Assembly (NCBI GenBank): GCA_030429705.1
Contig: JAUIES010000002.1
Span: 560,001-624,000, forward strand
Origin: Phycisphaerae bacterium
Lineage (GTDB): Bacteria > Planctomycetota > Phycisphaerae > Phycisphaerales > UBA1924
DNA: 64,000 bases
Direction: 5' to 3'
The notes under the pieces are model-generated. The model did no database searches. It saw only the letters and a program-made list of their open reading frames with translations, and was not told where the DNA came from. A program made the translations under genes and the position numbers. Positions within the stretch are counted from its first letter, which is position 1, and each line of letters begins with the position of its first letter. Below, in pieces: positions 58,287 to 64,000 of this stretch.

Positions 58287-60419
58287 TCACAAACCAAGTT
58301 CCGCATATCGTTTCGTCACCTTCTCAACGGTCTCGGGGTTCATTTTTATGATGGGCGGCCATGCTCGCGTGGGAAGCGTGTACGACGCCGACTCAACCTT
58401 CGGCGTTGCATCAATGACGGCGACAGCGCAGCCATCATCCATCGAATCAACAGTCAGGTCGCGAGCAAAATCGGCATTTGCGCACAGATGAAACATCGAT
58501 TCATCGATGTTGGCAACATCTACAGATTGGTCAAGCACCGCGCAGAATCGAACTCTGCTTTGAAGGCTGAGAACGCATTGTTTGATTCGATTCATCAACG
58601 CTCCCACTTCTGTCGGTCCTCGCAGTTCGGTCGAGATGAAGAGCCAGCCGGATTCGGGTGACACATCGGCTTGATGTACACCTTGAACGACTGATGCTGC
58701 CTTCGTGAGCGCCTGACACTGTTCGTGCGTTGCTCGTTCGAGCGGCGACCGCGGCTGATTCACAATGTCTTCGCCCACGATCTTCCGCGTGCAGTCAAAG
58801 CCGATCTTGCCACCGGCCCCAAGCCAAGGCGCCGCATGATCGAGGATGTCGAGCGGACCAAACTGCCGAATCAAATCGCGCGATGGATCACACCGATCGG
58901 CTGCAGCCCGCAACACGGCATTGGTATCGTGCACATCGATGTCCTGGTCAACAACAAAGATCATCTTTGTCCACGACATCTGCCCAGCACCCCAGACCGC
59001 GTTGATCACGCGATGGGCGTGCAGGGGAAACGCCTTGTTGATCTTGATACATGCGCAGTTATGGAATGCTCCAAACAGCGGCAGGTCATAGTCGTCGATG
59101 TCGTGAATCACCGTCTGAAGTAGCGGCTTCATGATGCGCTCGGTGGCTTTGCCGAGAAAGTAATCCTCTTGAGGAGGGAGCCCGACGATGGTCGTGGGAT
59201 AGATCGCGTTTTCGCGGTGCGTGATAGCGGAGACTTCGAGCAACGGGTAGCGGTCCGGCATGGAGTAAAAACCGGTGTGGTCGCCGAACGGCCCTTCAAA
59301 AACCGCCCCCGGACCAAGCGGCTCGGCATCAGGATCGCGTGGATCCCACCCGGGCAAGCCTGCATCCGTCCGTACGAATCCTTCAATGACTATCTCGGCA
59401 TCTGCTGGAACCCAAAGCGGAACGGTCTTGCCGCGACAAAGCCGTACGCCCTGCCCTTGCAAGAATCCGGCCATCAGCAGTTCCGAGATCCCTGGTGGGA
59501 GTGGGCAAGTGGCAGCATACGGCAGCACGCTTCCCCCACCTAAGGCGACTGCCACCGGCATGGGCTTGCCGAGTCGCTTCCACGATCGCCAGTGGCTCGC
59601 GCCGTCGTGGTGCATATGCCAGTGCATCGCGAGCCGATTGCGCCCGAGCAGTTGCAAGCGATACATGCCGATATTGTGTGATGCGGGCTTTGGGTCGTCC
59701 CGGTCGTCGGCGTGGATCGTGTGTATGCCGGCGAGTGTGATGAACCGGCCTTGATATTGCTCGAACCACTGTTCAGGCGAGATGTCGGCATGCCCGAGCC
59801 CGGCGACCTCGTCGTTTGTGCCGGCTGGGTATCCCATCGCGACAGGGTCGCCATCATCAGGCCAACACTTGATGATGGGTAGACGAGTCAGGTCAACATC
59901 GCCGCCTGTCTTGACGACCTGTTGACACGGTCCATCTCCACGCATGCGTTTGGGACCGATCTTCAGTAGAGGAGCGAAACGCCGAGCCGCGGCCAATGCC
60001 TCAGCGAGCGATCGGGGCGGCTGAGGCTTGACAAGTTCGGCGATACGATCTGCGATGGACTCGAAGCCGACCGGGTTGTCACCCACCGGTTGGAAACCGG
60101 TGCTATTGGGGGTAGAAGAGTTGCCGGGGCCTGCGCAGCCCAGAGCCATTTCCATTCGTCGATAGGACCCGAAAGCATTGATGAGCACGGGAAAGTCTGA
60201 CCCTTCGACATTCTCGAAGAGCAATGCGTGCCCGCCACGGTCGTGAAAGCGAGGGTCGTTGCGTTGAGCAGACGCCGAAGCGGGTGTTGGAGCCTTCGAT
60301 TGACTCTCTCGATCGGCGCATTCGGCGATTTCGAGGACGGGCGAAACGGGAGCCGAGATTCGTCGAAGTTCGCCTGATCTTTCGAGTGCGGCGACAAAGG
60401 CGTGCAAATCGGTATACAT
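58287..60419 (-). CDS. UbiD-family decarboxylase
   Basis: A 710-aa UbiD-type, prenylated-FMN-dependent decarboxylase. FENVEGSDFPVLINAFGSYR opens the core, then LTRLPIIKCWPDDGDPVAMG, FEGPFGDHTGFYSMPDRYPL, HRENAIYPTTIVGLPPQEDY and KAFPLHAHRVINAVWGAGQM follow, all family motifs. It is longer than E. coli UbiD (about 500 aa) and resembles the menaquinone/aromatic acid type, with an extended C-terminus. Substrate is not certain. A UbiX partner is not nearby. The ATG lies only 12 bp from the ATG of the divergent gene. Confidence 0.88.
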   Translation of the reverse strand: MYTDLHAFVAALERSGELRRISAPVSPVLEIAECADRESQSKAPTPASASAQRNDPRFHDRGGHALLFENVEGSDFPVLINAFGSYRRMEMALGCAGPGNSSTPNSTGFQPVGDNPVGFESIADRIAELVKPQPPRSLAEALAAARRFAPLLKIGPKRMRGDGPCQQVVKTGGDVDLTRLPIIKCWPDDGDPVAMGYPAGTNDEVAGLGHADISPEQWFEQYQGRFITLAGIHTIHADDRDDPKPASHNIGMYRLQLLGRNRLAMHWHMHHDGASHWRSWKRLGKPMPVAVALGGGSVLPYAATCPLPPGISELLMAGFLQGQGVRLCRGKTVPLWVPADAEIVIEGFVRTDAGLPGWDPRDPDAEPLGPGAVFEGPFGDHTGFYSMPDRYPLLEVSAITHRENAIYPTTIVGLPPQEDYFLGKATERIMKPLLQTVIHDIDDYDLPLFGAFHNCACIKINKAFPLHAHRVINAVWGAGQMSWTKMIFVVDQDIDVHDTNAVLRAAADRCDPSRDLIRQFGPLDILDHAAPWLGAGGKIGFDCTRKIVGEDIVNQPRSPLERATHEQCQALTKAASVVQGVHQADVSPESGWLFISTELRGPTEVGALMNRIKQCVLSLQSRVRFCAVLDQSVDVANIDESMFHLCANADFARDLTVDSMDDGCAVAVIDATPKVESASYTLPTRAWPPIIKMNPETVEKVTKRYAELGL

Positions 60420-60426
60420 TGTGTGG

Positions 60427-60432
60427 AGCCTA
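60427..60432 (-). promoter_or_regulatory. -10-like box of the UbiD gene, leaderless pattern
   Basis: TAGGCT on the minus strand ends 7 nt before the ATG at 60419, with no Shine-Dalgarno. It touches the start codon of the divergent methyltransferase gene. Confidence 0.35.
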
Positions 60433-61100
60433 TGTCAGATACACAGAACAAAGAACAGTCGTCCGCTTCCAAACCGATGCATTCGTACGCCGAGGTCCGT
60501 GATTGGCCTGGGTATTTCGCCGCGGCCAAGGGGCGCCCGCCACGAGACACGCTGCTCGAAGCGTTGGACCGTTTCGAGAAAGAAGGGGCTCTTGCCGACG
60601 GGGCTGAGCGGCCCTTGGCGGTGGACCTCGGGTGCGGCGAAGGTCGCGATACCGCAGAACTGCTCAGACGAGGATGGCGGGTCGTCGCGATCGACGGACA
60701 CACCGACGCATTCCAGTGCCTGCGTGCTCGCGACGACATCTCGGCGTGGGACAGGCTTGAGATGCGTGAGGCACCGTTTGAAGCCTGCCAGATCCCCGCG
60801 TGCAAATTGCTCAACGCGAGTTTCGCGCTTCCCTTCTGCGAGCCCAAGTGGTTTGACGCGTTGTGGAAGGTGATGACGATGGCCATCGAGCCGGGCGGGC
60901 GATTTGCCGGGCAATTGTTCGGTGTCAACGATTCATGGGCGAAATTGCCGGACCGATCTCACCAAACAAGAGATGAGGTTGAAGCATTGCTCAAGCCGTT
61001 CGCGATTGAGCGGCTGACCGAAGAGGAACGCGACGGAACAGACTGCACCGGCGAGGGCAAGCACTGGCATGTCTTCCACATCATTGCACGAAAGGTGTAA
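60432..61100 (+). CDS. Class I SAM-dependent methyltransferase (TehB-like)
   Basis: A 222-aa methyltransferase. The SAM motif is PLAVDLGCGEGRDTAELLRR with the acidic loop RVVAIDGHTDAF, resembling TehB and related small-molecule methyltransferases. It begins MSDTQNK with GGAG 4-5 nt upstream of the ATG at 60432. The substrate is unknown. The ABC transporter gene follows after 3 nt, so a shared operon is likely. Confidence 0.82.
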   Translation: MSDTQNKEQSSASKPMHSYAEVRDWPGYFAAAKGRPPRDTLLEALDRFEKEGALADGAERPLAVDLGCGEGRDTAELLRRGWRVVAIDGHTDAFQCLRARDDISAWDRLEMREAPFEACQIPACKLLNASFALPFCEPKWFDALWKVMTMAIEPGGRFAGQLFGVNDSWAKLPDRSHQTRDEVEALLKPFAIERLTEEERDGTDCTGEGKHWHVFHIIARKV

Positions 61101-63600: not shown

Positions 63601-64000
63601 CATCGTTCGATGCACGGTCAGATTGGATCGATGCAAGAACACAATTGAACGATGCAAGAGCAAATCTGATCCAAGCAAGCGTTGCGTCGATCAATTCAGG
63701 AACAGAATTGATCGATGCAAGAACAGAATTGATCGATGCAGGAACAGAATTGATCAATTCAGGAAGGGAATTGATCAATGCAAGAACAGAATTGATCAAT
63801 TCAGGAAGGGAATTGATCAATGCAAGAACAGAATTGATCAATTCAGGAAGGGAATTGATCAATGCAAGAACAGAATTGATCAATTCAGGAAGGGAATTGA
63901 TCAATTCAATCGTTGAATTCGTCGTTTTCCGCCTCCAAACGACGATCGGCACAAAGTGCGCGGTGGGTGGTTTCGAGCGGCCAACCCACGGCACCGGCAC
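63404..64000 (-). other. Long open frame across the repeat, edge-truncated
   Basis: At least 198 codons stay open from the right edge down to 63404. The middle encodes heptads such as ALINSLPELINSV with regularly placed Leu and Ile. The flanks look unlike a normal protein. The opposite strand is also open (63590-63916), with Lys/Arg/Asp-rich heptads. Either could be a repeat protein, or both could be a by-product of the 21-bp period. Not claimed as a gene. Confidence 0.3.
63601..63915. repeat. Tandem array of 21-bp units with palindromic core
   Basis: About 15 direct units of 21 bp run without spacers. Most start AATTGATC and end CAGGAAGGG or CAAGAACAG. The last half alternates two unit types, giving a 42-bp higher-order period from 63748 to 63894. 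AATTGATCAATT, a perfect palindrome, recurs at unit starts; units before 63685 are degenerate. The unit is a multiple of three, so both strands encode 7-residue repeats (plus IDQFRKG/IDQCKNR; minus ELINSVL/ALINSLP). Confidence 0.9.

Follow-up and report, generated by a model that had tools for sequence, protein, structure and literature searches.

The divergent genes ubiD, encoding a UbiD-family decarboxylase, and MT, encoding a small methyltransferase, begin only 12 bp apart, and we propose that an 18-bp segment, 60415-60432, is probably a minimal bidirectional promoter built into both of their start codons. The layout itself, its conservation in relatives, the TANNNT hexamer in front of ubiD and the register of this hexamer with the MT ATG can be read directly from the genome sequences. 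Leftward-facing polymerase would use TAGGCT as its -10 element and begin at the ubiD ATG or one base before it, giving a leaderless-type mRNA, and rightward-facing polymerase would use TACATT and begin near 60427, so that the MT leader would measure about 5 bases. The two hexamers are six bases apart, a spacing at which the A predicted as +1 on either strand lies opposite the final T of the other strand's -10 element, and this puts the predicted start points approximately 7 bp from one another. A polymerase facing either way would melt the -10 element and the start of the other gene, and from this we infer that only one polymerase could occupy the site at a time.

The locus and its two genes

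The window, meaning the whole stretch of 64,000 nucleotides that was analysed, comprises bases 560001-624000 of contig 7 (790,817 bp, 23% of the 3.49-Mb genome). The features of the locus, in window coordinates, are:

58287-60419, minus strand: ubiD, UbiD-family decarboxylase of 710 aa, start ATG at 60419 (Pfam and NCBIfam matches; the start aligns in relatives)
60432-61100, plus strand: MT, small SAM-dependent methyltransferase of 222 aa, start ATG at 60432 (Pfam match; ATG position conserved)
60420-60431: 12-bp spacer between the two start codons, read directly (10-16 bp across the family)
60432-60427, minus strand: predicted ubiD -10 element TAGGCT (AGCCTA on the plus strand), at -13 to -8 of ubiD and including the A of the MT ATG
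60419-60420, minus strand: predicted ubiD transcription start, 7-8 bases past the end of TAGGCT, leaving a leader of 0-1 base
60415-60420, plus strand: predicted MT -10 element TACATT, spanning two bases of ubiD codon 2, the whole ATG of ubiD and the adjoining spacer base
60427, plus strand: predicted MT transcription start, 7 bases past the end of TACATT, leaving the 5-base leader AGCCT

The sequence at 60410-60439 reads cggtatacat tgtgtggagc ctatgtcaga, with the ubiD ATG occupying 60419-60417 on the minus strand and the MT ATG beginning at 60432 on the plus strand. An initial annotation of this DNA had described divergent ATGs at these two positions, 12 bp apart, and a simple codon-usage ORF caller agreed with the sequence in picking exactly 60419 and 60432 as the starts. 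On contig 7 as a whole the same caller found 606 genes and 103 divergent pairs, amongst which the ubiD/MT gap is the smallest, the next being 15, 18, 24 and 31 bp.

The ubiD product is certainly a UbiD-family protein, since the Pfam models UbiD (213.3 bits), UbiD_C (152.4 bits) and UbiD_N (73.3 bits) all scored above their gathering scores, and TIGR00148 was likewise above its cut-off. The best NCBIfam model was TIGR03701 (menaquinone decarboxylase), yet its score of 487.2 bits falls below the cut-off of 495.9, and this model of the UbiD of menaquinone synthesis has 433 positions whereas the product here has 710 aa. The futalosine-pathway model TIGR03699 had two matches in the genome, both below cut-off, and since the same profile search also matches 10 of 14 control genomes (above cut-off in 2), a menaquinone role for the ubiD product is only a guess. 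The MT product was above cut-off for Pfam Methyltransf_25 and Methyltransf_11, and its matches in the PDB were weak (best E 0.0007). Two repeats were also seen in the window. The palindrome ACCGGTTGGAAACCGGT lies inside ubiD at 60085-60101, where it encodes TGFQPV, and is present in a single copy on contig 7. Near the window edge, at 63619-63909, there is a tandem array of a 21-base unit that is open in several frames; as a 42-base double unit it matches at 94% over 5.3 copies.

Conservation of the start codons and of the ubiD element

The relatives of this UbiD protein are Phycisphaerales-type planctomycetes, the best 80 of 259 named records being mostly labelled Phycisphaerales, Phycisphaerae, Phycisphaeraceae or Planctomycetota. 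The family search covered 163 genomes, with a ubiD match in 158 and some MT match in 143, and the 152 genomes with a readable ubiD start and at least 60 bases upstream of it entered the counts. MT was the divergent neighbour within the stretch examined in 128 of these. The other 24 are referred to as having no MT seen, which means none in the stretch examined (often about 500 bases upstream, and 62 bases in G153), and at least 7 of them (G061, G069, G126-G128, G153 and G178) have MT elsewhere or on another contig. From other families 24 genomes were searched, of which 21 had a ubiD match and 17 were counted; the four left out were two without sequence round the start, one with ubiD split between contigs and one without an N-terminal match. 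A single in-frame stop was found inside the ubiD match in G020, G144, G155 and G169, and may be an assembly error. A genome was called tight when an in-frame MT ATG lay 10-16 bp from the ubiD start; in G154 the second of two in-frame ATGs was counted, the first being the one in register.

Both start codons, whose conservation in related genomes the initial annotation had put forward as a check, are kept: 92 of the 128 family genomes that have MT divergent from ubiD, and 37 of their 53 genera, show the tight ATG-ATG layout. The gap in these 92 genomes is 12 bp in 34, 11 bp in 24, 13 bp in 24, 10 bp in 4, 14 bp in 3, 15 bp in 2 and 16 bp in 1, so that 82 fall within 11-13 bp. The remaining 36 comprise 6 with a GTG or TTG start of MT at the tight place and 30 in which MT starts elsewhere. 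The same annotation had named an ATG at 60480 as a possible downstream start of MT. An in-frame ATG does exist, its true position being 60477 (MT residue 16), but a downstream start is ruled out as a family rule by the genomes that offer no such alternative, since in 59 of the 92 the tight ATG is the only in-frame ATG, GTG or TTG up to MT residue 24, and in 73 no other in-frame ATG lies between it and that residue. The recurrence of the layout in most relatives suggests selection rather than chance.

The divergent pair ribH/ubiA, with a gap of 31, lies on the same contig and was the one usable control for drift in start-codon spacing. It was measured in this genome (G000) and 20 relatives, and with G000 counted 15 of the 21 belong to the family and 6 to others; an arginase/TPR pair was dropped as a second control since its second protein matches many other places. 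Both pairs were scored alike, by counting all in-frame ATGs and taking the 7-bp-wide range of gaps that includes most genomes; this range holds 89 of 128 genomes for ubiD/MT (17 of 24 among the first relatives) as against 5 of 21 for ribH/ubiA (3 of 15 in the family), and the latter rises to 8 of 21 when GTG and TTG starts are allowed. Since the start-codon gaps of ribH/ubiA drift, constant spacing is, on this one control pair, not the default in these genomes. In the case of ubiD/MT, too, the distance between aligned protein anchors is variable: after correction its quartiles are 7 and 37, and it ranges from -18 to 1004. It is an unfair measure for such a control because the MT N-terminus varies in length. 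The control locus itself lies at 765736-767335 of contig 7 (L248) and encodes a UbiA-like prenyltransferase, with UbiA below the Pfam cut-off. In 17 of the 21 genomes the examined ribH ATG has a TANNNT no more than 22 bases away (in 13 of them at -16 to -12), and in G000 it is at -15 of the called start.

The hexamer TANNNT was found at -16 to -11 of ubiD in 88 of the 92 tight genomes, in 21 of the 24 with no MT seen, in 22 of the 30 in which MT starts elsewhere and in 10 of the 17 from other families, and in none of the 6 with a GTG or TTG start of MT. Five windows of equal width farther upstream of ubiD contained it in 0-1 of the 92 tight genomes and in 0-2 genomes per class. Since the hexamer is present with and without MT and is nearly absent farther upstream, it belongs to ubiD. 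Passages of PMC3160421 describe a TANNNT approximately 12 bases before the start codon as characteristic of leaderless genes in several other phyla, and leaderless genes of this kind are also a subject of PMC12340547 and PMC3898074; in the window the hexamer of ubiD is at -13. Contig 7 as a whole has a TANNNT peak at -12, where 4.8% of its 606 genes and 6.8% of the 207 with an upstream neighbour on the opposite strand carry the hexamer, the background being 0-1.3% of the 606 genes at each position from -40 to -16. This peak is a sequence sign of widespread leaderless-type promoters on the contig. Because the element persists without MT and because of this contig-wide peak, it is very probable that ubiD has a leaderless-type -10 element, and on this the initial annotation, which had taken TAGGCT touching the MT ATG for just such an element, seems to have been right. 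There are 60 contig 7 genes with a TANNNT at -14 to -11, half of which (30) have a divergent gene upstream, and TTGACA was found before none of these 60 leaderless-like genes at the offsets scanned. A sigma-70-type promoter with a -35 element was also considered for the ubiD/MT site and was rejected, as a scan of 60250-60650 found no such site, a result that counts against the proposed promoter.

The hexamer is held in register with the start codon of MT. In 87 of the 92 tight genomes the T that opens it lies opposite the A of the MT start codon. Numbered from MT, there is an A at -5 in 88 and a T at -1 in 87 of these genomes, and at -8, -7 and -6 the commonest base reaches 42, 43 and 31. The hexamer is also kept in seven genomes (G156, G159, G160, G168, G171, G172 and G113) in which the place of the MT ATG reads ATC and MT starts further on. 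Its absence from all 6 genomes with a GTG or TTG start is what the sharing of a base with the MT ATG predicts. Of these 6, two support base sharing, since the other four belong to a genus (g73, G098-G105) that has kept the compact layout and lacks the ubiD hexamer in 8 of 8 genomes, including the 4 in which MT starts with ATG. This genus counts against the proposed promoter.

The predicted MT element and alternative explanations

On the plus strand, TACATT was found in 57 of the 92 tight genomes, in 5 of the 36 others with MT as neighbour, and in none of either the 24 with no MT seen or the 17 from other families. The comparison of 57 of 92 with 0 of 24 gives a Fisher probability of 6.6e-9 on genomes, which are not independent; counted by genera exclusive to one class it becomes 24 of 35 against 0 of 19 (3.2e-7). 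In the genomes with no MT seen, G predominates at the first position of the spacer (21 of 24), and it does so in the other families too (15 of 17). Part of the motif is to be expected, because Met-Tyr at the UbiD N-terminus spells TACAT, also in genomes without MT (xTA codon in 10 of 24). In the 57 genomes with TACATT its distance from the ubiD element is 6 bases in 22, 5 in 17, 7 in 13, and 4, 8 or 9 in 5. The pattern TANNNT-N4-9-ANNNTA is present in 57 of the 92 tight genomes, the window included. Amongst the eight closest divergent pairs of contig 7 (gaps 12-51 bp), both elements were found only at ubiD/MT. Position 60427, the predicted start point of MT, is A in 88 of the 92 tight genomes, and it also pairs with the T that closes the ubiD -10 element.

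A leaderless MT would be expected to have its TANNNT about 12 bases upstream. In the window the hexamer lies at -17, and therefore a short leader is predicted for MT; in the 92 tight genomes 52 plus-strand TANNNT matches are at -18 to -16 and 15 at -13 to -11. Words resembling a Shine-Dalgarno (SD) sequence occur at -15 to -5 of MT in 11 of the 92 tight genomes compared with 42% of contig 7 genes, and this scarcity fits a very short leader. Nine MT loci were encountered without ubiD found alongside, and five of these have a TANNNT no farther than 18 bases from a candidate start, one of the five (G005) being near a contig end where MT may really adjoin ubiD.

It could be argued that ubiD alone has a promoter here, that the MT ATG merely overlaps a real TANNNT, and that MT is transcribed from elsewhere, either from a promoter inside ubiD or from a -10 element of a different kind. 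We regard this as unlikely, though it has several observations in its favour. The ubiD element is present whether or not MT is next to it, and 18 of the 92 tight genomes have no plus-strand TANNNT anywhere from -24 to -6 of MT. Furthermore, when the association of TACATT with the layout was corrected for descent with a tree (FastTree, UbiD N-termini) it was not significant (median p 0.125): supported branches yielded only 7 independent pairs, with an average of 3.6 differing in the expected direction, 0.1 in the opposite direction and 3.4 not at all. Against this stand the presence of TACATT in most tight genomes and its complete absence both where no MT was seen and in the other families; a distant MT promoter would also need a leader with a ribosome site, and an SD-like word is present in so few of the tight genomes. 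TACATT as the -10 element of MT thus has moderate support, weaker than that for the ubiD half. The initial annotation had set this hexamer over the ubiD ATG for the same purpose, which fits the 57 genomes and not the 18, and its wording that each -10 element must lie at or in the first codons of the other gene was too strong, given those 18 and the 36 of 128 that are not tight.

That the compact layout is simply ancestral, its start codons unmoved and its spacing devoid of any promoter meaning, is an explanation that we disfavour as improbable. All 128 genomes come from one family, so the genome counts overstate the evidence, and the protein-anchor distances of ubiD/MT vary as the length of the MT N-terminus does. 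However, inertia would hardly leave MT -8 to -6 variable and -5 and -1 nearly fixed, nor keep the TANNNT where the start place reads ATC. Identity to the window proteins within the family genomes first searched, which is 56-67% for ubiD and mostly 44-73% for MT, also speaks against it, as does the drift of the ribH/ubiA gaps. Even less probable, in our opinion, is that both are ordinary leadered genes with transcription starting inside the neighbouring gene, GGAG at 60425-60428 being the ribosome-binding site of MT and the TANNNT accidental. GGAG does precede the MT ATG in the window, and SD-like words are common enough before the genes of contig 7, but only 3 bases separate this GGAG from the ATG, the G at its first position (-7) recurs in only 20 and that at its second (-6) in only 28 of the 92 tight genomes, and any SD-like word at all is scarce there. 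The frequency of TANNNT at -16 to -11 of ubiD is, moreover, far above background. The proposed bidirectional promoter at 60415-60432 is the explanation that we carry forward.

Implications and relation to known promoters

If this promoter is real, it is a very compact divergent one: its -10 elements have bases in common with the start codons, and this overlap is visible in the pattern of conservation. The locus also gives evidence, at the level of sequence, that Phycisphaerales have leaderless-type promoters, and it would let the degree of interference between two interlocked promoters be tested in a natural setting. The initial annotation had gone further in stating that the layout forces mutual exclusion or shared control. 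This is too strong, since passages of PMC12825309 report that at E. coli bidirectional promoters double occupancy is sterically excluded with little interference at low basal activity. At ubiD/MT the exclusion of a second polymerase at the DNA is likely, whereas regulated switching from one gene to the other is put forward as a hypothesis. In its widest form, start codons would lie within both halves of the promoter, and the choice made by polymerase at the 18-bp site would set the ratio of decarboxylase (perhaps menaquinone-type) to methyltransferase across this planctomycete family. We offer such a conserved switch tentatively, as a possibility that is more doubtful than the promoter itself. 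Under it, start codons and promoters could not change independently, because the A of one ATG would be a key base of the opposite -10 element.

With regard to the lineage, neither PMC3160421 nor PMC12340547 mentions Planctomyc* in its main text. Passages of PMC5397173, a paper whose table includes one planctomycete genome, suggest leaderless mRNA and/or RPS1 for non-SD genes in this phylum, and a table in PMC10783764 gives anti-SD types by class. Among the matches listed from the open-licence literature there was no start-site mapping for Phycisphaerales, and no title or abstract opening described a layout of the ubiD/MT type.

Bidirectional promoters are defined in passages of PMC10268837 by divergent starts 7-25 bp apart, mostly 18. 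The ubiD/MT site would resemble these bacterial promoters in having starts a few bases apart, -10 elements and starts overlapping on opposite strands, and, as predicted here, one polymerase at a time, its predicted 7 bp being at the lower edge of that definition. The usual class, as portrayed in passages of PMC12825309 and PMC10268837, has one near-symmetric -10 element with starts 18 bp apart, 10 and 23 bp also being common. In contrast, ubiD/MT would have two separate -10 elements facing each other across about six bases, both within start codons of protein genes, and one of its transcripts is predicted to be leaderless-type. The site is also comparable with the known leaderless-gene systems, given the TANNNT peak of contig 7 at -12 and the lack of TTGACA, at the offsets scanned, among its 60 leaderless-like genes. 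It differs from those systems in its lineage and in that two such starts appear to be interlocked.
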